From Fragilaria crotonensis (Eukaryota; Bacillariophyta; Fragilariophyceae; Fragilariales; Fragilariaceae), in assembly GCA_022925895.1 (NCBI GenBank), contig JAKSYS010000126.1:48566-112565 (forward strand): a stretch of 64,000 bases of DNA. The letters run 5' to 3'. Position numbers and translations under genes: made by a program. The number at the start of each line of letters is the position of its first letter. Within the stretch, counting starts at the first letter, position 1. Below, piece by piece: positions 11,121-59,065 of this stretch. The notes below the pieces were generated by a model. The model had not been told where the DNA came from. It saw nothing but the letters and a program-made list of their open reading frames with translations, and made no database searches.

Positions 11121-14100
11121 ATGAACCAGCTTGGTGACGGCTTCGGCCCATCGGCTGCACCAAGATTGTTCTACCCAGATGCTGATGAGGGCACACTTCC
11201 CTACCAACACCAAAATCATTATGATGGAGCTGAATTCTATGATCAGGCTCGAGCTATTCAAGGCGAACACTTCGGTGGAACTCAATATGGAGCCGTGTGT
11301 CAGGCAGAATATGTTGGATGGGATGCTGCTGGGATTTCACAGATTTCAGATCCCGGATACTACTTTCCACTGCCTCATTTGACACCGGCTATTTATTCTG
11401 CGCCTGTCAGTGCCATTGCTTATGATTCTCACAGCGCCGCAATGTACGTGGCTTCGCATACGCAGCCTTTCGGGAATCGTCCCACAAGGCCTCTATGTTG
11501 GTCACCCACAACACTCTGGATGGGACCCTCTACTCGTCGTGTGCCGGGCACCCAGAAGCTGAAGCAGAGACTCTGCAATCAGTCTACAGAACGTTCTACG
11601 ATGGCCGCAGCCAGGTGACTTCGAAGCAAATACGACCCCAACATGTCATACCACCTCATGCATACCAACCCTCGTTTGGCGCTGGCGGGCAACAACTCCG
11701 AGGGGCTCACATGGGCATCACAAAGCTATTATCCATCACGCCCGGCTTTGTGACCTCAGTGTCACCAGCCGGAGTCCGTGTTCACACTATTGGCGGCCTT
11801 TGCGTCAGCGACAACGATATCACTGGAATGGTTTGCGGCACGCCTCATCCCGAAGTTGGATCCACTCACGTCTCTGTGGGCGGACACAAGTCACAAATTC
11901 ATTGTTTAGATCTCTATCAAGATCTTCAAATAGTGTCCTCCCATACCTTTCCTGGGGACCTGGGGGTGATGGATCTAGACAGAAACGAGCTCAAGCGAGC
12001 ACTAGTCGCTGGCTGTTCTGATGGAACTCTGCGACTGCTGGATGGGAGAATGCGAGGGGCGGAGGTAGCCAAGATTAAGAGCCACGCTGGAGGGATATGC
12101 GCGGTAGCAACATCGCATGATGGTACGCTGGTCGCAACTACTGGGTTCACTGCCAAGTCAGGGGCCGCATCCACAAATTTAGGACCTTATGCCTTCCCTG
12201 ACCCCAACGTGCTCATCTACGATATTCGTTACTTGGGGCGAGGAGGAATTGCCCATTTTTTCTCCGGGTTGAAAAGCAGCCCTCGTTTTGTGTCATTTCT
12301 CCCCGCCATGCACGACCAGCCGAGCAATCGATTCCTTGTTGCTTCAGGCCAGCCTAATGGCGGCCTCCAAATTCTTACACCATTCGAAGACACTACCGAA
12401 AATCAATCAAACTTCATCTTTCCACTAGTTGATCAAGGTGTATCTATTACTTGCATGACTCTTTCGGAACAACACGTTGCGTTGGGTACGTCACAAGGAA
12501 ATGTGCTCCAATTCGAACTCGCTGGGTACATCAAGCATCGTACCCAGGGCCCTATCAACCTAACGGTAGACGCAGCAGCTTTTCCGAGTGCGAGAGAAGC
12601 GAATTTCACTTCCCCATCAAATACACCAAGCGATATTCCACCAGGAAAAGATTCCTTAGTGATGCCTTCCTCGATTGCAGCTTCGCCATCAGTTTTGATT
12701 TGTCCTACCGTTCTCCAGTCCACACACTTGGGTGGAATGACAGGGTTTAGTTCGTTCATCATGTGCGGGAACCCAGTTGTGTCCAAGGTGGGAAGTCGTG
12801 CCGAATCGAGCTTTGGTCCGATGGCAATTAAGCCGATGATACCATCGCCTAAGCGAACCGTCGCCGAAACAATTCTCAGCGCTGGTTCAAGGAAGGACGG
12901 CGACCGAGGACAAATCATTGCAACAGCGGCGGTGGATGTATCGCTTCATCCCAGAACAACAGCTATGGTTCGTAAGGGACGTAAACCATGGGCGCTAAGA
13001 GAAACCCGAACAAGTTTATCTTTTCGGAAGGCTGTCGTCTTCATGCTACATGCCAGATAGTAGACGGACAGGTAGAGCTGGGAAGTTGAGTTCCGCAGTT
13101 TCAAATGCTTTGGTGAGTACGCACGTATATTGGACGCTCATGTGGAACGTTTGTGATAACGCTTATATGTGTCTTGTCGTCGTTGCAGCCTCATGTTGAC
13201 GGTGTAGTTGACAATCGTAGACGGCCGGTCGTTCCTGATCGGTATAGACTGACACTTCGACCACAGCGTGTTACAACTGAGCATTTCAAGCATAGTACGC
13301 ACAATGCAACTGGAATGTGGCCAGGATGGGATTATCCGCCATCCATGCCGAATGCTCACGTCCCCGCTGTGCTGGTGTTGCTTTACTTTGAACCCGAGGT
13401 TAGGACGGCGATGCTCGAGCGCCAATTTGACAAGCGACTGTACACGTCTAAGACAGTCGAGCAAGTACCTATTTTGAGTACTGAACTTGGGTTTCTTTAC
13501 CATTACATGGAAAGCATCTCACACAACGCCATGATACACCCTGGTGATGAGGTGGATCCACAAATTGGTGTGTTTACACCCGTCAATTTTCTTGCCGCAT
13601 TCGCTTCCATGCCGGAAGCCGCAAATCTTGCGCTTCTTGACGACAACCCCGCTGTGGCGGTTACTGCCCAACGACCTGAAGCATTCTATCGATTCTTGTT
13701 ACATCACCTTGATAAGGAGGCTGGCTCAAAGAAGAGCCCGAAGAAAATTTTGGATTCTGTTCATGGAATCAGCTTTATAAGCTCAAATGAGTTCGTCAGT
13801 GGGAATGGGAAACCAACCGTATCTCAGTCAAGAGCCCTCACATTGATTTGTCGTACAGTGTTCCTGTTCGCTCTAAGGAGACGAAATTGCGATTTGGTGA
13901 GATCCTCCGTCATTCTTTGCGAAGAGAGACGAAGCTTCGCGCATGGAACAACACCACACAGTCTTATGAGACAGTAGTACAACGAAAGGTTGCTACAACT
14001 CTACCAGCCATACTTTCTATTTCGTGCGCTTGCGCTGGAAGACAAGAAGGGGAAGGCCTTTCGATATGGCGCACATGTTTCCATGATCATAATCTTTGGC

Positions 14101-15488
14101 TCCCTGAGATAGTGGAGATCGAACTCGACGAGGGCGATGACGTCGTAGTAAGAGAACTAATAGACTGTGGAGAGTTAGAGGAGAAGTGGATCACTTTTGA
14201 TGCTAAGTCAACCATGGCGCCGAAAATGTCGACCCCACTTGTAAAGGATCGTGCGTCGAAAAATGCGAAGGTGCGGTATCGACTAGAATCTGTTCTGTCG
14301 TTCGTTCGTGACGATTCTGACTTCAGAGTTGATAAAGAAGGGAAATCGGAAGGGCACCATGTTCTCCATGCACGCGTTCCTCTTGATTACCGGAAAAGGG
14401 CATTGTCGAAGCAACTCGAGCATGTTGAGGAATTATCGAAACTTCTGCAGCAGGAAGGTGGGAAAGGAAACCACGAATTTACCCTGACATCAAATCTCAC
14501 TCATGATGTAATCGCGAGTCGAATTGAACGATTAAAACATTGTCGCAAAGTGATTCCAAACCAACCTGAGTGGGTGCTGTTCAATGGGTATGTTGTCACG
14601 CCCACCTCTGTGGAAGACGCACGTTCGTTCCATGTTGGCTTCAGGGAGCCATGCATACTGGTGTATCGATCAATTGCTGAGAGCGCAAGAGTCAATCCTA
14701 GAGTCAACGCGATGCATGTCGCACCAACTGCCAAGATATCATGAACGTGATACAATCCAAGTCTTTGTCTTCTGGCCACCCTCAAGCATGCTATAAAGAG
14801 CATTAGTGGTAAGTTCTTAGTGCTTCCTATGTTCATTCTCTAGGTTGCTGACACTTTAGGACTTCCATCGCAGACCTGCCTGGCGAAGGAGATATTGTCG
14901 CTCTGGATGCCGAGTTCGTTTCTGTTCAAGAGGAGAAAATTGTAATCGGCGACACCGGCGACAAGATTATCTTTAACGAGACTCGCCATGCACTTGCCAG
15001 AGTTTCTGTTGTTGACTGCCGGTACAACAGTGTTTTGATCGACGACCATGTGCTCCCAAAGGAGCCGGTGGTGGACTGTCTGACTCGCTTCAGCGGCATT
15101 CGACCGGGCGATTTGGACCCCAAAACAAGTCCACATCATTTGGTACCAGCGCGAACAGCATATCTGAAGCTGCGATCGTTACTGGAGCGAAGATGCATAT
15201 TTTTGGGTCACGGTTTATCCACCGACTTCTTGACTGCCAATCTCTTTGTTCCACCCCATCAGATCATCGACACAGTTGAGCTGTATCACAAGATCGACAT
15301 CGATATATTTCTTTGCGCTTCTTGGCCAATTACGTTTTGGGGAGGGACACGCAGCAGGAAGTTCATGATAGTGTGGAAGACGCCATGACAGCATACGAGC
15401 TTTCCAGCGAGCCAAAGAGCTTATGGCGAACGGCTCCTTCGCCAGGTTCCTGGACGAACTTTATGAAAACGGCCAGCGGGTCAATTGA
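11121..15488 (+). CDS. PAN2: PAN2, catalytic subunit of the PAN2-PAN3 poly(A) deadenylase
   Basis: Cytoplasmic 3'-5' exonuclease that starts mRNA poly(A) shortening with PAN3. The N-terminal WD40-like part (11121 to about 13000) begins MNQLGDGFGP and contains PVSAIAYD and HKSQIHCLDLYQDL. A pseudo-ubiquitin-hydrolase domain follows (about 13189-14740; ILSTELGFLYHYM, VPVRSKETKLRFGE, SCACAGR). Last is a DEDDh exonuclease (14876-15488) with all four acidic ligands and the histidine visible in ALDAEFV, GHGLSTDF and HDSVEDAMTAYEL. Introns are seen at 13113-13188 (GTGAGT...GCAG) and 14809-14873 (GTAAGT...GCAG). The frame must change near 11466, 12990, 13022, 13843, 15307 and 15402, each as if one base were missing, and the order between about 14740 and 14808 is unclear. 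The end is set at the TGA at 15486; if that stop is an artefact, the frame runs on to 15707. Conservation to the last domain argues for a live gene. Confidence 0.93.
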
Positions 15489-15771: not shown

Positions 15772-18093
15772 TTAGGCGGACTTCTTCGTTTTGGACGACA
15801 TGATAAATGCAGTTGCAACCAAGATCAAGAGGAGTGCCGGACTGGAGATAAGAGCTTCAACCGCAGCGGCAAGGAAAACAACAGAGAACGCTGGGACGAA
15901 GACAACAGTCATAACAACAGGGTTCTGCTTGACCAGCCAGAGCGAGACGGCGAGCGGCGTTTCAACCCACACGGAGACCCCCTTACTGTAGGTCTCGGAA
16001 GCACAGAAAGAGGAGCTGATCTCGCACACAAGACGGTGTGGGGCTTGGGACAGGTGAGCAAGCCAGTGAAGGTCGAAGGCAAAGATGCCTCCGATGAGAA
16101 GCGAGTCCTCGCCTTTGAGGTTGACATAAGAAGAGGCAACAACAGAGTTGACAACAATGGTTCCGTCCTTTGTGAAGGGAGCGAACACCCCAACGTCAGT
16201 GACAGCCTTGATCATCTTCACCGTCGCAAACCCACTGACAAGGGACAGCTTGTCACCAACCGCTAACGTTGACGCAGCGACGGCTTTGTTGTCGACGAAA
16301 ACCATGTGGTCGCCACTGAGAACGAGAGGCTTCTCAAGCCCGGCATCAATAGAAAGGAAAGAAGCCTCAACATCATGCTCGTAGTGACCGAAGGAATAGA
16401 TCTCCGAGAACTTGCCTCCTGAAACCTTGACCATGTCCCCGATCGCGAGGTCTCTCATGGCGACTTCTCCTCTGCCCTTCACTTCAGCGGTGTTGCTGCC
16501 CGAAAAACAGAATCCACCAGGTTTCACGATGCGGTTGTTGAGCATATCGTTGTTGACCGCAAGCGTATTCGCTGTGAGGGAGAGCTTGCCAAGAAGGGTA
16601 GTACCCTGAGGGCTCAGGCAGAATCGAAGGAAGCCGCGACTGATGGGAAGGACGGCAGCTGCATTATTCACATACGCGAAAACTCCAGGGGATACGACCA
16701 GCTCAATGAGTTTCTTGACAGAAGGTGATGGACAAGACAAGACGTAGTCCTTATCAGTCACCTTGTAAACGGAATTGTCTGCGAGTGCACTGGTTGCTCC
16801 GACCTCTAAAGAGTTCACGCCTGTGGCGCAAGTGCGCGATAGAGCCTGTCCATTGGCAGTTGCAGCGGGGGCGATGCTGCTGAGGATGACATCCACTTTA
16901 GGGCACTTCGCTGTGTAGAGTAGACTCCAGGCGTTGAAGCGTGCACGTTGAGCCGCATTGCCAGTTCCAACTCTCACAATGCCATTCGTTTCACACACAA
17001 TATCGGCAATTTTAATCCCACTAGCACTTCCGAGTCTGGAAAGCATGAGAATTTGGTCAGCCGCTGGGACTGCGTCATTTCCAGTATCTTCCACTAGTTT
17101 GTCTCCAGCTGCGGTGTATCCGTATTCCAAGAAAGGCAAGGTCTGTGCCAAGCTGGCTTTGTTCACGTTCATGAAGATCCTGCGAGTAAGAGGGTTGTAC
17201 TCATTACTGAGGATCGTTGCCTTCGACGGGGCCACATACACGTTAAGTCTGTTTCTAATCGGTGCAGCAAGGACAACTCCAGCATTACTGAAATAGTATG
17301 AGTAACCGAAGAAACCAATGGCGGCATCATTGTTCCTGACGTAACTCAATGTGTCTCCATCACTCACAAATCCCTTGTAACCAAGAGCTCCAGTGTTATC
17401 GAACAACTCAGCAGTATTTTTCAAAATCTTCTCCTTGAAGAACTCAGATGTTCCTGAGTTCGACTGATCAGGTCCTGATAAATTGAACTCCTTGTCCTCG
17501 CATCTTTTGTCTAGAGTGCTCCACAAAGGGGAATCTCCTCCTTTTCCCGCGGAAAGGGAACTTGCCGACCATCCTCCCTGGATGAGCTGCTGTCTGGTGA
17601 GGCTGGAGTACATAAAACGGAGCTGATCCGGTGTCAAGCCCCTGAGAAAGCCGATGCACGTACTTCCAGGCCCTCCTCTCTTGACAACGACGGTAATGCC
17701 ATCGATGGCAACCTCGACGCGAGTCACCAAACGGTTTCCGGCGGAAACGCACCTGAAGTTCCAGGCATCATCGGAAGTTGCCTCGGTAGCCCTCCATTCT
17801 CGAGACATGGTGCCAATTTCAACACCACCATTGCAAACTCTGGTGGCGCCCTGGCCAGACCCACCCCCAACGACAACAACATTATCGTTAGCCGCGGCCG
17901 GCAAATTACTGACATCCTCACCGATGGTGGTTGCTTTGCCGCACTTCGTAGCGTAACCCCTACCCCATGCGACGGCAACTGGGTAGACGGTTGAGGATCC
18001 AGCAAGTCTGAAACCTGAAGACCCACATCCGGCAGGTTGGGCGGTGGCCGCGCCAAGCACGAACGCAGCGACTGTAGTACGAAGGATCATCAT
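15772..18093 (-). CDS. Secreted PstS-like phosphate-binding protein fused to a Hedgehog/intein (Hint) domain
   Basis: A 773-residue single-frame protein. I start at MMILRTTVAAFVLGAATAQ (ATG at 18093), a good signal peptide; the frame extends upstream to 18240 without support. Residues about 20-500 resemble the periplasmic phosphate-binding PstS family: RLAGSSTVYPVAVAWG, GGGSGQG, IGTMSREW, SNSGTSEFF, IGFFGYSYY. At Cys529 a Hint domain begins (GGFCFSGSNTAEV) and continues with MRDLAIGDMVKV, LSGDHMVFV (the S/T-x-x-H block, His about 595), LAVGDKLSLV and VNSVVASSYV, ending near 690. The C-terminus holds one or two hydrophobic segments (about 720-765) and the basic end SSKTKKSA. In Hedgehog-type proteins the first Cys of Hint makes an internal thioester and the chain is cleaved there; here that would free the binding domain. 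Cleavage and phosphate binding are inference. No intein-like C-terminal His-Asn is seen. Confidence 0.85.
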   Translation of the reverse strand: MMILRTTVAAFVLGAATAQPAGCGSSGFRLAGSSTVYPVAVAWGRGYATKCGKATTIGEDVSNLPAAANDNVVVVGGGSGQGATRVCNGGVEIGTMSREWRATEATSDDAWNFRCVSAGNRLVTRVEVAIDGITVVVKRGGPGSTCIGFLRGLTPDQLRFMYSSLTRQQLIQGGWSASSLSAGKGGDSPLWSTLDKRCEDKEFNLSGPDQSNSGTSEFFKEKILKNTAELFDNTGALGYKGFVSDGDTLSYVRNNDAAIGFFGYSYYFSNAGVVLAAPIRNRLNVYVAPSKATILSNEYNPLTRRIFMNVNKASLAQTLPFLEYGYTAAGDKLVEDTGNDAVPAADQILMLSRLGSASGIKIADIVCETNGIVRVGTGNAAQRARFNAWSLLYTAKCPKVDVILSSIAPAATANGQALSRTCATGVNSLEVGATSALADNSVYKVTDKDYVLSCPSPSVKKLIELVVSPGVFAYVNNAAAVLPISRGFLRFCLSPQGTTLLGKLSLTANTLAVNNDMLNNRIVKPGGFCFSGSNTAEVKGRGEVAMRDLAIGDMVKVSGGKFSEIYSFGHYEHDVEASFLSIDAGLEKPLVLSGDHMVFVDNKAVAASTLAVGDKLSLVSGFATVKMIKAVTDVGVFAPFTKDGTIVVNSVVASSYVNLKGEDSLLIGGIFAFDLHWLAHLSQAPHRLVCEISSSFCASETYSKGVSVWVETPLAVSLWLVKQNPVVMTVVFVPAFSVVFLAAAVEALISSPALLLILVATAFIMSSKTKKSA

Positions 18094-19140
18094 CTTAGTC
18101 GAGTAAGAAATATGAGAACGTATGGATTCGTGCACAACTTCGGAGTAAAGGGACACCCGGGTAAAGTTGACACAGACCTCGGAGGAGCCTATCTCGAAGT
18201 GAATCTTAAAATGTTGCTGAATCTTTCTACTTAACGACATTTAGCAGTTGAATCTTCGCTCGTAAGAATTGGGTGAGATGCCGCCATGCTGAGAAATGTG
18301 TATAAAAAATTTGGATCACAAGCACATTTCTTTTACGACGATAAGCCAGTATCTCGTTGATTCTACGCTGGTACATTTGGATATAAAACGTGTTAATGTT
18401 GGTAGGATCAATGTTATAGAAACGAAACATGTGTCTGAACATCTACTTAGGAGTTGGCCTTAGAAGCCACACGCAAAGCATTAGGTAGAAGATTCAGAAT
18501 AGATTCATTCCAAAACATGAGAAGTCTGCATCAAACTTCGACGCCTTTGGGACCTCACGATTCACGACCTCAAATCTCGTGCGTTCAAATTGCTCAACAA
18601 GCAAACCAGAGCAGCCAGCATCATTTCAATCGGACATTCTGGGAGTTGTGAGTTGTGTAACCACGTATGTCATCCTGTGCTCGGAGTACCAGGTTGTACC
18701 ACCTACTGGTACCAGGTACCAGGAATCCCATGCATGCATACTCATGTACTAGGTAATAGGTACTCAAGTACAGGTTGGTACATACTGTACATGATACATG
18801 TGTATGCCTAGATGTTGTAGTCGGAGTCTACTTGCACTGTATTCTGATAGTGGTACCGGCACTAATATGCATACCGAGTTCTTTAGATCATTGAGTATGC
18901 ATACAAGTATCATACATCATACTTGATTGTATGGTACTATGATATACTCGGAGTATTGTACTCCAGTATGTCACAAACACTCAAACAGTACCAAGTACCT
19001 GGTCCTCCAGTACCCTGTACTCGGTACTCGGAGTACTACTATGTGAGTACTACTACACCGTAAGCCCAAAGACCCCGGTAGAAACTGTAGAGGAACTTCT
19101 TTACACCAATCAATATAGAGAAATAGCCAAATTTATCAAT
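18094..19140. other. Intergenic spacer, GTAC-rich
   Basis: No gene recognised. Between about 18690 and 19050 the sequence is dense in overlapping palindromic words such as GGTACCAGGTACC, TACATGTA, GCATGC and GAGTACTC. These recur in other spacers of the window but seldom in coding parts. Confidence 0.5.
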
Positions 19141-22685: not shown

Positions 22686-25600
22686 TCACACTCTGGCAGA
22701 CGCAGGGATTTCTTCAGCTTTCTTCGCTCCACTTTTCTTGTTTCGGCGATCTTGCATTACCAGCCGACTGAACTCACCATTTCTTTTCTCCAAGAGATCG
22801 CTTGGCGAGCCGTATTCAACAAGGTCCCCAGCGCCGAGAACAGCAATTTTATCGTACCCAAGTACTGTGTCTAGCCTATGGGCGACGGTGAGGACTGTCA
22901 CGCCCTTGTTAACGAACTCTCTGCGAATCGTTTCTTGCACATTGGCATCGGTTCGTGAATCAACACTGGACGTAGCTTCGTCCATGACAAGAATCTTGCT
23001 TTTTCGTAACAAAGCACGGGCAAGGCAAATGAGCTGTCGCTGTCCGCTTGAAAGGTTTTTGCCCCCTTCACTTATATAAGTATCCAGACCACTTCCAGCA
23101 GCTCTGAATTGCATAGCTAAATCAGGTGACGCAGCTTCCAGTGCAGCCCAAGCGTCCTCCTGGCTTGCCGTTCGTGTTGCGTCGAGATTGTACAAAAGTG
23201 TTCCTGTGAAAAGAACCGGATCCTGCGGTATGATAGATAAAGATGCGCGAAGAGTGTGGAGGGGCACTGATCGTATGTCTATGCCATCAATCTTTATGGA
23301 ACCTCCTGCTTCTAGTTCGAAGAGTCGGAAAAGAGCGAGGAGGAGACTGCTTTTGCCGCTTCCAGTTCGGCCCACTATGCCAAGAGTGCTCCCTGGCGGA
23401 ACTGTGATCGTAACGTTCTTCAATACGAGCGGGGAAATTTCGTTGTATCTCATCGACACTTGATTGAACTCGATGTTGCCTTTCCACGGCCATCCAGATG
23501 TTACAAGTGCAGTGCTTGAAGCTGGGGCAACAGCGGTTCTCGGTGGACCTGAGTACAGCGACAAGAGTGCCTCGCCGGCGTCTTGTTTCTCTTTCGGCAT
23601 CTTTAGTCCCTTGGCTCCGTCGACTGCGCCATCCACGTGCACTGAGTCAAGATCAGTCAGTTCTTGCACTCTCATCATGCTCATCATGTGAGTCTCTAAA
23701 TCGGTCAAGGTTCGAACAGCCCATGTAAGTAGACCCGTGATTGCCATAGCTTGTGTCAAACCCCACCCGGCAGAGCCAGCCTTCAACTTTCCTGCTCGCG
23801 TTAGGAAAACCGAAACAACGGCAGCCACGAAGACGATAACATTTCCGAGAGATTCGAGTCGAATTGAGAGCCATCTATCAAGTGCCTTTGCGGAGTAGTA
23901 AACTGAAAGGTTCTGGTCGGTCAATCCCTGATGTTGCGACGACCAAATTCTGCTTGCACCAGGCATCGATCGGATGGTCTCTTTGCCCCTTAATGCCTCA
24001 CCAAAATGAGTGTAAACTGGAGCGCGTACGCGACTCGCTTCGCTTCAAGTCACGAGCTGCAGGTCGAAAGCGGCCCATCGTGTTACTGTAAAAGATCCCG
24101 ACTACAGTGAGGGGAAGGAGCATCGCTGGAGTGATCACTCCGGCAAGGGCTGCTGTAGACATGCCGATTTGCAAGAAGCAAAACAAAACAGATCCAATTC
24201 CATCGGGGACAGCACTGTCGATGATTTCCATTTCCTTCCCGAACCTAGACAGTAGCTGCCCTGATGGTGTGGAGTCGAAGAACGACATCGGGGCCTTAAA
24301 GACTGAGGTCAACATTTTGTTGTGTAGAAAGTCAGAGGCTTCAATCCCAACGCGCATGGTAAAGAAACTCCGAAACCACAGAAAAACGGACACGATGCCA
24401 GCGGCCTTCACGAGAGAACTAAGGTACTGTCCACCCAGGGCCGTGGCCAGGGCATCACCTCTCCCAAGCTCAGTCCACTTGGCGACAATATACTGTTGAA
24501 AGAACTGGGCTCCATTTGACGTAACGAAGGAAAACCATGGCGGCAAGGAGAAGCGGGTTCCTGACTGATTTCAAGTATGTCGTAAGCAGAGAGTGGAACA
24601 GCTCCTTTGGACATCAAATCGTCCGCGGAGACGAGACCAGTAGTACGCCGGTCGGACGAAGAACCCGCAACCGTTGGAATCGCAGTGACTTGGTTTTCTT
24701 CCGCACCACTTATTTCGTGGTTTGCCAATACTGAATTAAGAATTGGATATTCTTCATCCTCCACGTCGGGAGTCATCGGGATAATTTTGTCAGGAATATA
24801 ATTCTCCAGACCCCTCATGCACTCAACACAGTCTGGATCAGCATGCTGCGTAAGCGTCGTACTGTTATCGAACTCTCCTAATGCCTGATTGTATCCGTAC
24901 GTTGCATTGGACACTTTCAGCGGAATCACTTCGCCGTCGTGTAACAAATCATGGAATGTATCCTGGTCGAGTGCCTTAGACGGCACTTCCGGGGATGATA
25001 AGCTCCGGAGATCGTGCCCTCTAGCTAATAATTCGTCGTATGTACCAATGTCGATCACTGTTGAGCATGAAGGAGATGCTGGATTGTACTTCCCCATCAG
25101 TGCGACACGATCGCAGCGCCTCGGGATGTTGGGGTCGTTAGTGACGAGCAGCGTCGCAGACTTTGACCTCCGAAGACGCTTGGTTAGGCGCTCGAACACG
25201 GTCGACCCAACGGCGGCATCAAGCGCAGCAAGCGGGTCATCTAGTAAGTATACTTTGGCATCATCGCCAGAATAAAGGGCCCGAGCTAATGCAACCCTCG
25301 CCCGCTGACCTCCACTGAGATTCGAGCCGCCTTCGCCAACATCGGTATCGTGACTCAAAACACCCCTAGAAGCAGCTTCCTTAGAGTTCATTCCATAGAT
25401 GCTCCCATCAATATCTTCATCCAGACCTGCGTCGGTCAACGCAGCCCGATATCGCGCCTCGTCGAATTCTCGTCCGAAGACGACCGCATCTCTGAGTGTC
25501 CCCTTTGGCAACCAGGCTTCTTGTGAGCAATAAGCTATTCCTCCTTGTGCAATGACGACCGGCTTTTCCAAAATACCCAGCGTCTCTGCTTTTGACTTCA

Positions 25601-27484
25601 TCGACGGGTCGATGACTGCTGAAGGAACTGGAGATAGCTCGCCTAGGAGACCCTTGATGAGGGCTGTCTTCCCAGAACCAACAGACCCGACGACGGCAAC
25701 GATTTCTCCTGGATTAATTGATATGTCAACACCACAAAGAGCAGGGGCGGCCCCATGTCCTGATTGTCCGTCTACGGCGGGGTTTGCTGATGACCAAAGG
25801 AAGTTACCGTTCTTCATCGCGATGGCACCGCCACCATCGACCGACTCCAGGGATTGCACATAGGGCGTGATTTCTTCCGCGGCAAGGTATGACGAAATTC
25901 TACGAAGGGAACTCTTCCCGCTGGCAAGGGAATCGATGAGCATAGGGTAAAAGAAAAGGGCTGGGGAGGGGCTTGTGAGCAAAGATTTTTCTGCAGGACG
26001 GAGGCTTAATTGCCCAGCGGTAACTTACGGAATCGCAACTGATTGAACAAGGATATAGCCGTAAAAATGGTGCTTGCGACAATCGGTCTTCCAGATTTCG
26101 CATAAGCCATAAGTGTCACCACAAGCACCAACGCCGGAACTGCATTCGATATGGCTTGGTTCAGCGCTCGAATGACACCTCTTGACGAGCGACGAACCAG
26201 TTCCTCGCGACGATACCTGTTTATATCATCAGCAAACGAGTTTTCCCATCCCTGTAGTTTGAGAAGTTTCATGTTGGAGATAGCTTCAGTCGTTCGTTTT
26301 GTTCTAGCATCTTTGGCTTCATTCTCGAAACGTCGCATGCTATTCAGAATTCGCAATGTTGTACTGTTTAGAGGAATCACCAAAAGTAAGACACCGATTC
26401 CCCAAAGCACTGATGGACCAAGGTATCGAAAGAGTAACGAAGTGTACATGATAATCTGCAAAGGACCGTCCCAGATCGTGTGCAATTGCATGGCGGTGGA
26501 TTCGAGGACTGACGCATCGGATTGCATTAAATTCAAGACGCCTCCATCGCCTAAACTTGTCTTGCTATCCCTCGACTCCTTCCCTCCCTCGCCTCCAGTT
26601 GGGAGTCGAAGGCTCTTGTCGAAGATGAGGCCCCCCAAAGAACCCCGTACTTGAGTTGCCATGTCAACAACCCTGTGAAAGTATTGATTCTCAATAATCA
26701 TTTTCACCGACAGGACGCCAACGAGCGCAACCACGGCTAGAAGTGACTTTCTGACAGGATCTCGATCTCCTGACTCGACAAGACGAAGCAATCGAGCGAT
26801 CAGGAGTGCCGGAAATGCCTGAATCGCAGTGTTGGCCAATCGTAAGATCCCCGTCACTATAAGCGTCCGACGTTGGTGCAAAATCAAGGCCTGCAATAGC
26901 GTTCCCGACTCAGACGCCACAGCCTCATCGTCGCCGCCCTTTGCACGATCTTGTTCAATTGTCCTCCGGGCCTTGGTTCTGCATTTGTGGTACATGTCAC
27001 TAAGCTCAGGAACGGCGGATCCCATCTTGTGCGACTTGGGTATTGCGAAAGCATCGGATTCCTCAAGCTCCCGTACCGACGCCAGGTCCACCAGAGGGGA
27101 GGCGTAACTGAAGAGCAACTTCGAAACTAATGTAGCATTATACTCGCCACTTTTCCATGCAATGGAGGCATTCGGCGAACCAGCCCGATTCAGGTACGTC
27201 AGTACTTTCGTGAGGAGGGGTTTTCGCTGTCTGGATGACTGAATCTCCTCTGCGGTTGATGTCGCTGCCAACCCAGAAGACGCTCCAACGCCTGGAGGAC
27301 GGAGGTGGTGGAGAGCAGAGGATGTGCCCAAATTTGTTGTCGCGGATGTGGTGCTGGCATAGGTGCCAACGGCAAATGGCGATGCAAAGGGTAGAACAAT
27401 ATGTGCCACCAGCAGCGCTAAAAAGCCAAGGGAAGGGACGAATTGTGACGATCCGCCACGACTGTTGCCACCAGTTTTGATCAT
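22686..27484 (-). CDS. ABCC-type full ABC transporter (TMD1-NBD1-TMD2-NBD2)
   Basis: Membrane exporter of the multidrug-resistance (ABCC) type. It starts at ATG 27484 (MIKTGGNSRGGSS) with a hydrophobic N-terminus (LGFLALLVAHIVLPFASPFAVG). TMD1 lies in 26029-27484. A 68-bp intron at 25961-26028 (GTAAGT...CCCAG) joins QLRFP to LFFYPMLIDS. NBD1 has Walker A GSVGSGKT, signature LSGGQRARVALARAL and Walker B VYLLDDPLAALD, with Asp in place of the catalytic Glu as is usual for ABCC NBD1. TMD2 covers about 23700-24600. NBD2 has GRTGSGKSS, LSSGQRQLICLARALL and ILVMDEATSSVD and ends KKAEEIPASARV. Frame changes are needed near 24575, 24535 and 24030. For example, the reading LKSVRNPLLLAAM lies in a frame between its neighbours. 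The substrate cannot be told. The FASPFAVG stretch vaguely recalls a diatom plastid-targeting motif, but I would not rely on it. Confidence 0.92.
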
Positions 27485-28522
27485 CGTTCAATGTTTCGCT
27501 GGGTCAAAGTCGTGAGATATTGAGGCGTTCAGGAACCTTGACTGTCCTTTGGATGCTTGCTGACCTGGCGTACTTGCAACGGTGACGCTGACGAGCGGAG
27601 ACAACAGTTCCTTTTCGTGGACTCAAAAGTCAAGTCTGGATGCCTACTAATGTAAGATCGCGCGGTCACTGTTAACGTCAGATGATGTAGTTGTCAATAG
27701 CCAATACCGTCGCTCCTATTCCTCTCTTGACAGTCGCTGACTAATCCGATACTTCGGTGGTAAAATTGGTTCGTCGTGTCATGTCGTCATGTCACACCCG
27801 CAACAGCACAGTTTCACCTTTCCACGCACAGTCGCACGTGTCCAATATCTCAAATCTGACTTCATTTCTGTTCTCTCGTTCAACATAGCAGGTACAGTAG
27901 GTCTACTGTTGTACTTGTAAAGCAGTTGGGGGCCAGCAACATGTAGAGGTACTGGACAGTCATTTTACTGTATGCCTACATACTTCGACTACTACAATGA
28001 CATTGCTATGGAATATGAAATATGAACAATGTCGTATGTCGTATGTCCTCAAAGGATTCAACTGTATATAAACCACAGTGCCAGTACTGAACAAGAGTAT
28101 GCATCGCTTGCACGGTTGTACTCGTAAGGAATTTCCACTCTACCAGTAGTAGTATTTTGAAGGTACTGTAGTACTACGTATTTAGTATCGTACGAGGTAC
28201 GACTACCGGAACCAGGTATACAGTATACACCATTTTTATCGACATCAAGAGACTCGGCTCAACATCTCCTGCACTATGGTAGTGGGCATTGTGGGCCTAC
28301 TTTTGTAGGCCCACAATGCAGAATATATTGGAACAAAAATGTAGTAGTCGAAGAAATTAATAGAGAAGTAGTATGGTGGTATTGATGTAGACTCAAGTTC
28401 GATGCCTGGCATTGGAGCAGCTGAGAGATAGACGAAGACCATAACAGCACATCGCCCATCTTTTCCGCCAGTTGCATTGGAATAGTTGAGCGAGGTAGAG
28501 AGGTAGACGAGTTCAGCCCATA
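27485..28522. other. Intergenic spacer
   Basis: Separates two minus-strand genes and includes the 5' flank of the ABC transporter. No gene is seen. Apart from the hairpin at 28286-28319 it shows only GTAC-type words (27890-28230). Confidence 0.5.
28286..28319. repeat. Perfect hairpin with 14-bp arms
   Basis: GCATTGTGGGCCTA at 28286-28299 and its exact inverse complement at 28306-28319 enclose a 6-base loop CTTTTG. The hairpin lies about 200 bp beyond the stop codon of the CASP gene. It could form in RNA from either strand; no role is known. Confidence 0.9.
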
Positions 28523-30813
28523 TTACGCGCCCGACATGGCAGCAGCGATTTTCTCATGTTGGTCGGGAGCCAAGTGCGCCAACATTTCGTGGTGGCTATC
28601 GTCGCATTCTCCGTGGGATCCACTGTACGTAGTGAAGAATACCAACAAATGCATTGCGCACACGTAAACAAAAAGAGCAGTTCGCATCTCCTTGGTTCCA
28701 AGGGCGGTCTTGGCGACGACGAAGACAATGCGTTCCATAGGAGACATTTCTTTCATCTTACGCTGACGTTCGGTGCGATTGAATTGCCGGAAAGGATCTA
28801 CTGAGGCTTCGTAGCGTTGTTCAAGGGCCTCCAGATCTAAATCACGGTCTGGCCCTCCCAGACGGGTCTGGTACGTCTGTAAATAGCGTACCTTTTCGTA
28901 CAGCTTGGTGTTGTCGATCTTCAGCGATTCTGAAGCTTGGACTTGTGCCTGCAGCTCTCGCTTGAAACTATCCCTTTCAGCTTCCAATGTATCGCATCTC
29001 ACCCTCAATCGATCGCGTTGGGCCATCACAATCGTGGCCACCGAGTGATCATCGTTGGCCTTCTCAGAAGCGCTGTAGGAGGCAGGCGTCATGAGACGAG
29101 GAGACCCTGGTTCAAGGATTTCCTGAAGGACAACAGCGCCTTCTCCAGTCTTAGCTGCGCTTGCAGTGATCCTTTTAGTCAAGTGAATTGGTGAATTAGC
29201 CGATGCATCTAAAGCGAGGTGAAGATCTTTTTCCAAACTGGCAACAACCCCTTCAGCTTCAGCTCTAGCCTTGTCAGCTTCTATCAACTCTCGTTTGAGT
29301 TGATCGCATTCGCGAGAAATTTCGACTTTGAGATTTCGTTCCGAACAAGATCTGATTCTACTCGCTTCAACTTCGATACCAATACAGCCTCAAAGTCTTG
29401 TTCGTCACCATCTCCAGTAAACTCAGGATCGCGTTCTCCGTCCTCAGCATTGTATTCCAAGCGCTTGAGAATGCGCAATTCTCGTTGAATGCTGTCAACA
29501 TACTTTTGAGAAGGAGCCGCGGACAACTGCGTCTGCAATGATCCAAGTTGTGCGACGAGGGTGCTTCGCTCGCGTTCCAAGCGATCAATAGAAGCCTGGA
29601 GAGTGCGCCTTTCATCTTGAGAGGCTTCTTCCTTCAAACGAAGCTCTTCACGAAGCGCATTTGCAGTATGCGATAGCTCACTAACTTCTGCCTCGTATGC
29701 TTTGCGTTCGAGAAGGATGTCAGCTACAGCCAATGCTCCTGATGGAGGGGCTGACTTACCGCCAGATCCGCCCTGAGTGGCGGCGACCTTGAGACGTAGT
29801 TCATCACGTTCGCGATTCGACTCGTGAAGCGTCTCTCGGAGGCGCTCTGCGTCGTCGACTAAAATTCGTCGCTGAGCTTCCCAAGCTGCCTCACGTTCTC
29901 CAGCACCCTCATCGGCTTCCAACAAGTGAGTCTGTGTGGCTTCACGACCAGCTCGTTCAGCCTTGAGCTGGAGTTCCAGCGTCTGCACTCGACGTTCCAT
30001 GGCGGCCTCACGTTCCAGAGCCTCGGCAGCACGTCGGCCTTCAGTTTCGGCAAGTTCAGCGTGCGCTTTTTCGAGTTCTTGCGCTAAGGATTCTTGAGCT
30101 TTTTCTTCAAGCTCCGCAATCTTGGCTTCGAGCTTGCGAATAGTAATGTCTTGGTTCTTTAGGCCACGAAACTCAACTTCATATTCAGCGACTTCTCGGC
30201 GAAGCTGAAGCAGCTCTTCCCTATCGTCCCTCGACATGGACGGAGCCGAGGGAGTCGGGGTATTAGCCTCCATGTTGTTCATTTCCCTATTTACGTGCTC
30301 CACAGTTCGAAGAAGCTGAGCGATCTGACCTTGTTGGTTGCGGATCTGGTCCATGGCTGCGCTCATCAATGCCACTGGATCAGGAACTTCCATAATTGAA
30401 GTATGCACGGATAAAAACGCGTTTTCAGAAGCCTTACAACGACGTGTAAGATTATCGATTTCTTCCTGATATGATTTGATAGTCTGGCGGCAGTCCTTTG
30501 CCAAACTGTCCATCGCCTTGACAGCGAGATTGTCTGCATCAGGTGCTTTCGATTTAAGGGATGCGGATGCCTGCTCCATCGACTTGACTGACTTCTTAAA
30601 CGTCTTTGTTGTCTCCGCGAGAAGCTTGCGAGCAGCAAGGGACAAGTCTTTTTGCTCCCGAGTGACAGCTGAAGCTTTCTCCAACTGCGCCATCTTTCCA
30701 TCCCAGTCGAAGGCAACCCATGCTTGAGACGCTATCTGTAATGACTGAAGAAGTGCAGCATCTTGCAGCTCAGCGGCTGCCGGTGCGGAAAGCGAAGAAG
30801 ACCGCATCATCAT
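28523..30813 (-). CDS. CASP-like Golgi coiled-coil tail-anchored protein
   Basis: Homologue of CASP (the CUX1 alternative product), a golgin-like protein of Golgi membranes that tethers vesicles. It starts at the first of three consecutive ATGs (30813, 30810, 30807; MMMRSSSLSAPAA). Nearly the whole chain is heptad-rich coiled coil with the family N-terminus (AWVAFDWDGKMAQLEKASAV). The C-terminal block is diagnostic: QRDRLRVRCDTLEAERDSFK, LKIDNTKLYEKVRYLQTYQ, YEASVDPFRQFNRTERQRK and MSPMERIVFVVAKTAL, then a single membrane span (RTALFVYVCAMHLLVFFTTY) near the end. The two halves are in different frames. The switch is needed near 29345, where SDLV passes to ERNLKVEISRECDQLKREL in the next frame, as expected for one missing base. 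No intron signals are seen there. Confidence 0.9.
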
Positions 30814-32219
30814 TTTCTGTTCAGCGAAATTCTGAATGTTGTTTGTGCACTGCACATGTACTCGTACATAAGTAAGGCATACTGGTACCAGGTAGCGTGA
30901 GACTTTCATACACATCCGGCCCTGTTGCCGGTACTGTACACTGTACTACAGTACATGTAGTTCTGTAGTACTACTGCTTCAGTAGCCTGTACGTTGCATG
31001 TCTCACATCTCGCACCAGTACACCAGTACAACACTTTAGTAGGCTTGATTGACGAGATGGGCGTACTAATATTAAGATATTAAGCCTGTATCTGAAGCAG
31101 GATGAATCAGTTGGACAGCTGACACTTCTGGGGTGTGGTACATCACCCGTAGAAATCCCTGTAGAAATTGTTCATTTAATTTCTCATTCAATTTTGATAT
31201 TGCAGTATATGTGAAGATGGTAATGAATAGCTCAAAGCATGCGCTCTGCAGTAACATAGAGCTCTTTGTAGTCCTGGAGGGGTTTCATTTCAGCTTGTCG
31301 AGTCCAACCGTACGTAGTCACGTGATACAGAGTACTACTGTAGTACAGTACTAGGCGTAGTACTTAGTTCGGAATGTCGTGTGCGTCTACGTGCTATCTC
31401 CTATTAGTTGTACCTCCCATCTTCATTTGCGTATTTCTTTTCAAATACATGTTTTCAATTCATATTTCACCCAGTTGCTTTGTTGGAGCGCAGGCGCTGT
31501 TCTACCCAAAAATGCAATAATATGAGCAAATTGGCGGACAATTTGATGTGCCTGCAGCACAGTAAACAGTATCCACATTTTACTAGTAAAATCGTCGCGG
31601 TCCAATTGATTCAGCTTAGCCAATTTGGACCGAAATTGAGGATTTCACGGGAACTGAACCGAGATCTATCAAATGGCCAACTCAAAAAGTGAAATAAATG
31701 TCAAGGGGATGGGCAGGATTTTCTCAAAAAAGACTGGTCCAACCATTCATCCTGCATCTACTCGTAGCCTCGTCGGTATAGAATGTCGAATGCTGACGAC
31801 ATTGGAGTGCCACATTCAATTTGGATACAGTACAAGTACCGGTACTACCCCAAGGTACTCGTAGTACCTGGTACTTGTACTTGTAGGTCCAGTAGTCTAA
31901 TACACCGGTAGAAGTACAACTAATATGCTTCTACTGGGTCTAACAGTAGACTTGCGATGTCATGTATTGGAAAGCAATGACGAAGCCAGAGTTTGGCTAT
32001 TTGGCTGTGCTAGCATTCGTACTGCTAACAAGCACTTTGTCATCGGACATCGGCACATCGGATTGAATGTTTGCAAATACGAACCAAGTTAAACCAAACC
32101 CGAAGCGTCCAACTTTCCAACTTCCAACTTGCAACCACAGAAACGGAAAGATTTGTTGACAGCTTGAGCATCCTTGATATCTAGTCGGTAGGTGTTGTTG
32201 CCAACAACGTGCAAGGAAA
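30814..32219. other. Intergenic spacer between divergent genes
   Basis: Lies between the CASP start (minus) and the P450 start (plus), so it presumably holds both promoters. No motif can be assigned. GTAC-type words are dense at 30930-31050 and 31850-31900. Small open frames (31408-31692, 31997-32341) are not recognised. Confidence 0.5.
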
Positions 32220-57925: not shown

Positions 57926-59065
57926 ATGATCTCACTGGACAACGTATTCGATATCATGGAAAGAAATCGCACCGATACTGAGATGTATGGAGACGAAGTT
58001 GTTCACAACTACATTGACTACGGGAACGAAAAGAACGACTTATTCGCGTTGCGTTCAAATGAATTCATGGGCTCTCTTGATGTTTCCTACCCAAATAATC
58101 GCAACCCAAAAGGGGTGATGGCTGTTCCCTTTCCTGTCAAGTTGCATGAAATGTTGGATCATATTGAACAAGATGGACTTTCACACGTTGTTTCATGGCA
58201 ACCCCATGGGCGATGTTTTGTGGTCCACAATCAGCAGCAATTCGTCGATGTGATCATGCCACATTACTTCAAACAGACCAAATTTCCAAGTTTCCAACGC
58301 CAGCTCAACTTATATGGATTCAACCGATTAACCTCAGGACCAGACAGAGGCGGATATTATCATGAGTTCTTTCTCCGCGGAAAGAAATTTCTCGCCCTTC
58401 GCATTCAGCGACTCAAAATCAAGGGCACGGGCGTGAGAAAACCAAGTTCTCCGGATACGGAACCACAGTTTTATGTCATGCCTCCAATACTCACTGACGT
58501 GCAGGAAGACGATGGAGTTACGGCAAAGAACACATCGACCATTCATCAACTACCGATGGAGGGATACCACTGTTTGGTTCTCTTCCGCCAGCCCTGCTCA
58601 CACGGCAGATGACGACCGAATTCAAGCCATCAATCGCATCATTTTGAACCACGCCCTTGCAAGTAATCAGATGCATGGGCTACCCACAGTTTATCCGAGC
58701 TGCAAAACATCATCTTGAAACAGCAGTACAGCTTTGGTCACTTGCCCTCTGTAATGAAGGGCAGCACAGTGCTTCCGAACCATCAGAGCTCACTATCATC
58801 GTTGCAGTTACCAGCATACACCTCCGAGTGGATGACAGCGTTCTCGGAGCCACAGGCTATACCATCGACTCCTATGGTCACAATTCAGTGTCAGTTTCAA
58901 AACACGAACCAAGTCGATGTTGAATCTGATGACGAATCAGAAAACGAATTCGATCGTATGCTGCAGACTCTTGGTGAGCTTCCCATCGAGATGACTACCA
59001 CGACAGTCAACCCATTGGCAGCGGACCATTCTTTAGCGAACCTATTAGATACGATAACAGAGTAG
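57926..59065 (+). CDS. Heat shock factor (HSF-type transcription factor)
   Basis: Nuclear DNA-binding protein. It starts at ATG 57926 (MISLDNVFDIMERN). The winged-helix HSF domain covers about residues 69-165: FPVKLHEMLDHIEQDG, VSWQPHGRCFVVHN, FVDVIMPHYFKQTKFPSFQR, QLNLYGFNRL, and the wing and YYHEFFLRGKKFLALRIQRL. In diatoms this family is greatly expanded, and members with a short tail such as this are common. The tail continues through frame changes near 58565, 58605 and 58700, each as if one base were missing, via TADDDRIQAINRIILNHAL to the acidic end ESDDESENEFDRMLQTLGEL and LANLLDTITE, stopping at 59065. No clear leucine-zipper trimerisation repeat is seen, which is usual for the diatom type. 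Its targets are unknown. Confidence 0.92.

Follow-up and report, generated by a model that had tools for sequence, protein, structure and literature searches.

In the diatom Fragilaria crotonensis, a PstS-family periplasmic-binding-protein (PBP) domain, a Hint domain of the Hedgehog ("Hog") type and a hydrophobic tail are joined in a single open reading frame. We predict from the sequence that its product is a non-Hedgehog Hog protein that cuts itself and passes its ectodomain to a nucleophile in the membrane, a reading to which we assign a probability of roughly 55%. The gene lies within a window of 64,000 nucleotides (the whole stretch of DNA that was analysed) on a contig here termed C33, and the genome searched with it comprises 62.1 Mb in 881 contigs. 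This is a photosynthetic genome with 61 light-harvesting matches, some of which are pieces of one gene; the nearest PDB entries to one of these light-harvesting proteins are the diatom photosystem I structures 6ly5 (1.4e-87) and 6l4u (1.4e-86).

Gene structure and domain architecture

The gene is an uninterrupted frame of 773 codons plus stop on the minus strand (15772-18093), running from a Met codon at 18093 to a stop at 15772-15774. An earlier in-frame ATG at 18240 would yield an 822-residue version; we prefer the start at 18093, because a signal-like stretch begins there and because a 55%-identical copy on another contig (C413) lacks the upstream part by eye. The signal-peptide-like start, likewise read by eye from the sequence, comprises residues 1-19 (MMILRTTVAAFVLGAATAQ; 18037-18093). 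Upstream of the gene, the stretch 18690-19080 is GTAC/TAC-rich and repetitive by eye, and two neighbouring frames (11495-15400 and 57926-58612) resemble by eye a PAN2-type deadenylase and a heat-shock transcription factor, respectively.

Residues 20-360 (17014-18036) form a PstS-family PBP domain. Pfam PBP_like_2 (PF12849) matches residues 20-314 at 9.7e-9 (35.8 bits versus a 27-bit cut-off), NCBIfam TIGR02136 matches residues 9-339 at 9.3e-28 with 97.3 bits, far under the model cut-off of 206.6 bits, and PDB entry 4jwo, a phosphate-binding protein, matches at 1.8e-14. The query used in the Pfam, PDB and NCBIfam searches (P0001) had one extra N-terminal residue, and its numbering is one higher than that of the gene. 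Of the phosphate-contact residues, the letters SGT are kept in the four copies read (C33, C121, C413 and C12). The site aligned with the phosphate-binding Arg of E. coli PstS is Pro in C33, C121 and C12 and Arg in C413; this site does not settle the ligand of the PBP domain, because 4jwo has Ala there. A search for relatives of the PBP part among bacteria and archaea yielded 57 pattern matches, of which none was confirmed; with only two short patterns behind it, this search says little about the origin of the domain. The genome of F. crotonensis also holds two PBP_like_2 genes (L039, C250:57328-57726; L040, C659:98628-98957) whose frames, as far as read, showed no Hint; the last reading frame of each ends by eye in a hydrophobic stretch, and this PBP type is possibly anchored directly.

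The following 168 residues (361-528; 16510-17013) constitute a conserved region of unclassified kind, as judged from the copy alignment and substitution counts, with no match in Pfam, NCBIfam or PDB (best E 0.89, to an unrelated protein). A second PBP module (a half domain) was considered for this region and is unsupported, given a profile-comparison probability of 15% and the same unrelated best PDB hit.

The Hint domain occupies residues 529-660 (16114-16509) and begins with Cys529 (16507-16509), its Cys1 and predicted nucleophile. It is matched by the Pfam Hint model (PF01079) at 3.5e-20 over residues 528-662 and, in a single-sequence PDB search, by 6tyy at 3.7e-4; when 17 of the genome's Hog regions are combined into a profile (see below), the fly Hedgehog structures 6tyy, 6td6 and 1at0 are recovered at 2.6e-21, 6.4e-21 and 1.4e-19. 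The S-x-x-H motif extends from Ser593 to His596 (16306-16317) within LSGDHMVFV. The region after the Hint, residues 661-723 (WLAHLSQAPHRLVC ... GVSVWVETPL; 15925-16113), is conserved in the Hog alignment and appears adduct-recognition-like; the Pfam Hint match extends into it as far as model position 200 of 213, and the part beyond may resemble the Hedgehog SRR. The protein closes with two hydrophobic, probably transmembrane segments found by hydropathy (approximately residues 726-742 and 748-764; 15802-15918) and with KKSA, a C-terminal dilysine tail of the KKXX type (15775-15786). A sequence-only reading of this DNA had proposed just such an unbroken frame uniting a PstS-like domain, a Hint domain with Cys529 and the LSGDHMVFV motif, and a hydrophobic C-terminus; these elements are confirmed, with Cys529 and the motif at the positions claimed. 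The family E-values, the two intact copies described below and further damaged copies elsewhere in the genome speak against a chance resemblance. The strand, the gene family and the conserved stretch ahead of the Hint are additions to that reading.

The same reading had termed the Hint self-splicing, and here the comparison went the other way. On the profile evidence, the Hint is of the Hog type and not a splicing intein, because the Hedgehog Hint structures match far better (6tyy at 2.6e-21 versus 8.3e-4 for 2jmz, listed as MJ0781, which we take to be an intein, and 0.009 for the highest-ranking chain that carries an intein label) and because a membrane tail stands in place of a second extein, the conserved region and two hydrophobic segments ending the protein. 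Attachment of the ectodomain to another molecule had also been suggested earlier, and Hint chemistry could permit a one-sided intein that links the ectodomain to another protein; with the Hog-type match far above any intein-type chain and no extein after the Hint, we regard splicing or ligation as very improbable. Nor was a Hedge signalling domain found, a Pfam search to E 10 having returned only PBP_like_2 and Hint. Structure prediction, which had been put forward as a check on the fold, speaks neither for nor against it: two single-sequence jobs gave mean pLDDT values of 35.3 and 30.8 and no usable fold. Within the otherwise poor 251-residue model, helices are predicted at positions 213-228 and 230-250, with pLDDT 65-77 over the last 30 residues, in keeping with the two C-terminal hydrophobic segments.

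Copies of the gene and divergence of its parts

By our count from sequence comparison, the fusion occupies about four loci, on C33, C121, C413 and C12. The C121 copy (94% identical to that of C33) and the C413 copy (55%) are intact; the C12 copy carries small indels, starting near codon 505, that put it out of frame ahead of the Hint and within the first part of that domain, and its identity to the C33 gene is 79% over residues 1-548 and 94% over residues 543-773. C12 also shares part of one flank with C33 at 94%. C313 shares both C33 flanks (99% over 2061 bases on one side; 93-94% in three pieces on the other) and differs inside the gene by only 2 mismatches and 7 short deletions; hence, we take it to be the other allele of C33, with assembly errors or decay. 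In the copy on C411, about 7 kb of sequence interrupts the gene near codon 387; this copy may be an allele of C121, because both have the junction letters KGFNPC and the same short matches to the C33 flanks. The C411 insert (approximately 24970-31925, between L005 and L028) is other sequence, possibly a mobile element.

These copies bear on whether two genes were read as one or joined in assembly. The small indels that separate the near-identical contigs C313 and C33 are of the sort that would favour such a join; however, the same junction is open in C33, C121 and the divergent C413, and it can still be made out in C12 and C313. Because the fusion recurs at three further loci, frame-shifted at one of them, and because whole-protein dN/dS against C413 is 0.24, we do not regard it as an accident of assembly, and we give a false join next to no credence.

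Set against C413, the C33 protein as a whole has a dN/dS of 0.235; taken by part, the PBP domain has 0.30, the Hint 0.13 and the membrane tail 0.46. These ratios are rough because dS is near saturation (1.5 overall, and beyond correction in residues 361-527). By these counts, the PBP and Hint domains have plainly both been kept, together. The closer copies provide three comparisons (C33/C121, C33/C12 and C121/C12) that share copies and are not independent. Between C33 and C121, there are 5 silent and 22 replacement changes in the PBP domain and 6 and 3 in the Hint, with dN of 0.029 and 0.010; the PBP dS of 0.021 is lower than the Hint dS of 0.066, and the bootstrap range of the PBP ratio is 0.68-4.40. 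Most of the change in region 361-528 in this pair falls within residues 501-528 (16510-16593), just ahead of the predicted cut, where pN is 0.31 versus 0.025 for residues 20-500. When this segment is set aside, the counts, in the same order, are 9:27 for residues 20-500 versus 11:9 for residues 529-773 (Fisher p 0.041); when it is included, they are 11:45 versus 11:9 (p 0.0044).

Between C33 and C12, dS is alike in the PBP domain and the Hint (0.130 and 0.119), but dN is 0.095 versus 0.012, about eightfold, and dN/dS 0.73 versus 0.10 (Fisher, residues 1-500 versus Hint, p 0.0015), which argues that the Hint sequence is guarded. Between C121 and C12, dN is 0.080 in the PBP domain and 0.016 in the Hint, a fivefold excess, at dS of 0.123 and 0.162. 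Across the close copies, ectodomain dN exceeds Hint dN three- to eightfold, no region is shown above a ratio of 1, and the Hint dN/dS is 0.10-0.15. As far as substitution patterns tell, selection guards the Hint, and the ectodomain either drifts or adapts. The sequence-only reading had named nutrient scavenging or signalling as possible roles; an ectodomain that changes so fast is not what a strict phosphate-uptake role would lead one to expect. The tail (residues 661-773) is less guarded than the Hint, its dN/dS in the two comparisons with C12 being 0.65 and 0.44, and this counts against our reading of a Hog that cuts and transfers. Gene conversion of the Hog between copies, suspected from the split identity of C12, was rejected for the Hint on the C33/C12 dS values; in the tail, where dS in this pair is lower (0.062, from few changes), conversion may have taken place.

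Catalytic residues and the predicted reaction

The genome contains 29 Hint places, counted in 32 Pfam matches, of which 31 lie over the Pfam cut-off, one of these only together with its neighbours. The 17 rows of the Hog alignment were taken from these places. The 12 left out (C113, two of the three on C368, C12:268337, C411, C444, C376, C152, C753, C313, C626 and C560) are, C560 apart, duplicate, broken or partial as far as viewed; the C113 Hog is identical by eye to that of C291. None of the 17 rows departs from Cys1, Phe2, the Ser and His of the S-x-x-H motif or one Arg in the region behind the Hint. The first position of the motif is Ser and never Thr in all of them, and C376, outside the alignment, reads TEDH.

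The residue preceding Cys1 is variable (Pro in 4 of the 17 rows, Thr in 3, Phe, Gly and Ala in 2 each, and four others once each). Pro at this place is unfavourable in inteins, and its presence in four rows, including the 94%-identical copy on C121, weighs against cleavage. It would suit a Hint that no longer cuts and serves only as a stalk, the binding protein then staying anchored for good; the PBP-type genes on C250 and C659, with no Hint seen and a hydrophobic end by eye, point in the same direction in that direct anchoring may exist. Against such a stalk stand the catalytic residues, kept in 17 of 17 rows, and the Hint dN/dS of 0.10-0.15 in close copies whose ectodomains change faster, and we consider it improbable. 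Cleavage at Cys529 is, by contrast, quite likely on the sequence evidence, and the earlier idea that a Hint cut before this residue frees or transfers the binding domain is supported as a prediction.

The family motif SFGH aligns with LFMH of 6TYY and LFMD of wild-type fly Hedgehog, and the profile alignment places His570 (16384-16386; Hint residue 46) at the fly residue D303. This position is His in 16 of 17 rows and Tyr in one; the Asp that activates cholesterol is thus absent, which counts against sterol transfer. According to passages of PMC9163320, cholesterol is activated in fly Hedgehog by D303 acting as general base, a D303H version retains structure and activity and gains activity on coprostanol and epicoprostanol, and 6TYY is the structure of this laboratory variant (Zhao 2019, cited there). 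Since the fly D303H protein is active and 16 of the 17 members have His at this site, the substitution engineered in the fly protein may be the natural state of this family. By analogy with the fly protein, we infer that the family Hint uses a sterol. Further points weigh against a sterol-transferring, Hedgehog-like reading: the motif J Cys position is Ser in 13 rows, Asn in 3 and Thr in 1, and a six-frame, exon-by-exon search of the genome gave no match to the Patched family.

The same substitutions could indicate cleavage without lipid transfer, in which the thioester is hydrolysed and the Hog is a self-acting sheddase that frees a soluble binding protein. The replacement of the general-base Asp of the fly by His and of the motif J Cys by Ser, Asn or Thr would accord with this, as would reports, in the passages of the respective papers, that several changes at D303/D46 ease cleavage by DTT (PMC9163320, PMC13060885) and that vertebrate constructs undergo spontaneous hydrolytic processing (PMC13060885). 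Nevertheless, sterol transfer is retained in fly D303H per the former source (PMC9163320), and the conserved region and membrane anchor after the Hint would be superfluous for a plain hydrolase; we judge the sheddase unlikely as a complete account, albeit a serious one. Taken as a separate question on the sequence evidence, lipid transfer as opposed to plain hydrolysis is close to an even call.

In our preferred reading of a Hog that cuts and transfers, the precursor would enter the secretory pathway and the Hint would convert the peptide bond before Cys529 to a thioester. A membrane nucleophile, most likely an algal sterol activated by His570, would then take over the ectodomain (the PstS-family domain together with the conserved 168-residue region), which would depart from the Hint. 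The Hint would remain in the membrane via its C-terminal helices, perhaps retained in the early secretory pathway through the dilysine tail. Hydropathy finds two C-terminal hydrophobic segments in 15 of the 17 rows and one in the remaining two. A KKXX or KXKXX end is present in 8 of 17 rows and lacking in 9, whereas shuffling the last ten residues gives an expectation of 0.89; these ends may represent only two independent cases, as all eight fall in two clades of the Hog tree. The dilysine signal acts in the cytosol, and retention by it conflicts with two full membrane crossings, because with these the tail and the Hint would share one side of the membrane.

The Hog family and its known relatives

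The Hog domains of this genome are preceded by varied ectodomains. Besides the PBP forms (C33, C121, C413 and C12), there are M43 peptidases (L055, L057), trypsins (in one frame with the Hog in L062 and in an upstream frame in L060, two near-identical loci by eye that may be alleles), PT repeats (L045 and L054 by Pfam; L053 and L056 by eye) and a Cys-rich ectodomain (L051, by eye). In L046 and L047, an M14 peptidase lies upstream of the Hog in a separate frame, joined to it only via a presumed intron. In the Hog tree the PBP forms cluster, the PT forms cluster with L049, and one starred clade contains the M43, Cys-rich and short forms. Such variety ahead of one cutter is what a Hint indifferent to its passenger would lead one to expect, and passenger-independent action is stated for SHhC in a passage of PMC13060885. 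Among individual loci, L046 and L047 (C291 and C113) have near-identical M14 peptidase and Hog frames and are alleles or a young duplication, and L051 (C368:32500-42499) holds two tandem Cys-rich Hog genes with a third, cut-off copy on the opposite strand. Searches of viral contigs gave 7 pattern matches with the full protein and 30 with the Hog alignment, none of them confirmed.

More tentatively, the Hog family might represent a natural "base-swapped" form of non-animal lipidation. In it, a membrane-anchored His-for-Asp Hint would add algal sterols to, and so release, exchangeable secreted proteins (binding proteins, peptidases and mucin-like repeats), and the retention tail of some members would hold the ectodomain until it is cut.

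The family type is already known, namely that of non-Hedgehog Hog proteins with odd N-termini; the PstS-Hog architecture was not found described in the literature searched. The sections of Burglin 2008 (PMC2362128) on such proteins of protists and algae report new N-termini for Hog genes generally, and, at the motif J Cys, Ser, Thr or Asp in mosses and red algae but Ser in a few alveolates. The C33 protein shares with these a Hog that follows an N-terminal part, here putatively secreted, the variety of N-termini and the replaced motif J Cys (as in many algae, mosses and some alveolates), but differs in the PstS-family domain ahead of the Hog and the hydrophobic helices after it; the words "phosphate" and "diatom" each occur 0 times in the main text of that paper. 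The Hog proteins of Cyanidiophyceae, as portrayed in passages of PMC13353863, are similarly a multigene algal family whose function is unknown, with trefoil- and kelch-like partners in place of the PBP, peptidases and PT repeats seen here. Large Hint families also occur in two other diatoms: passages of PMC12803021 count over 290 Hint (IPR001767) genes in Pleurosigma pacificum and 112 in Seminavis robusta, giving counts and remarks on expression without architectures. In the part of PMC3879662 that concerns them, Hint proteins are mentioned in connection with sexual reproduction in Seminavis and with female gametes of Ectocarpus.

In the literature searched, with subscription journals mostly outside the search, no Hog was found in print that combines a PstS-family ectodomain with hydrophobic helices in the tail and a natural His46. 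Sterol transfer by the Hog is established for Hedgehog, and, to our knowledge, whether many protist and algal Hog proteins transfer sterol is an open question. The present family makes this question testable, as it offers a natural D303H-type substitution together with several ectodomains as reporters.

With animal Hedgehog the C33 protein has in common the Hint by profile, Cys1, the x-x-H motif and the APxT..GTI.VN..AS.Y motif; in contrast to it, no Hedge domain was found by Pfam, the Thr of T-x-x-H is Ser, D303 is His, the motif J Cys is Ser, and membrane segments have been added. The engineered fly D303H protein has the same His at Hint position 46, which is natural here in 16 of the 17 aligned members. 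The likeness to the bacterial PstS proteins (the TIGR02136 group and 4jwo) is that of a family match over residues 9-339, under the curated cut-off of TIGR02136; what sets the C33 protein apart from them is that the domain is part of a eukaryotic precursor with a Hog and a membrane tail. A bacterial-type solute-binding passenger shows the reach of Hog coupling, which extends to a part without a known signalling role.
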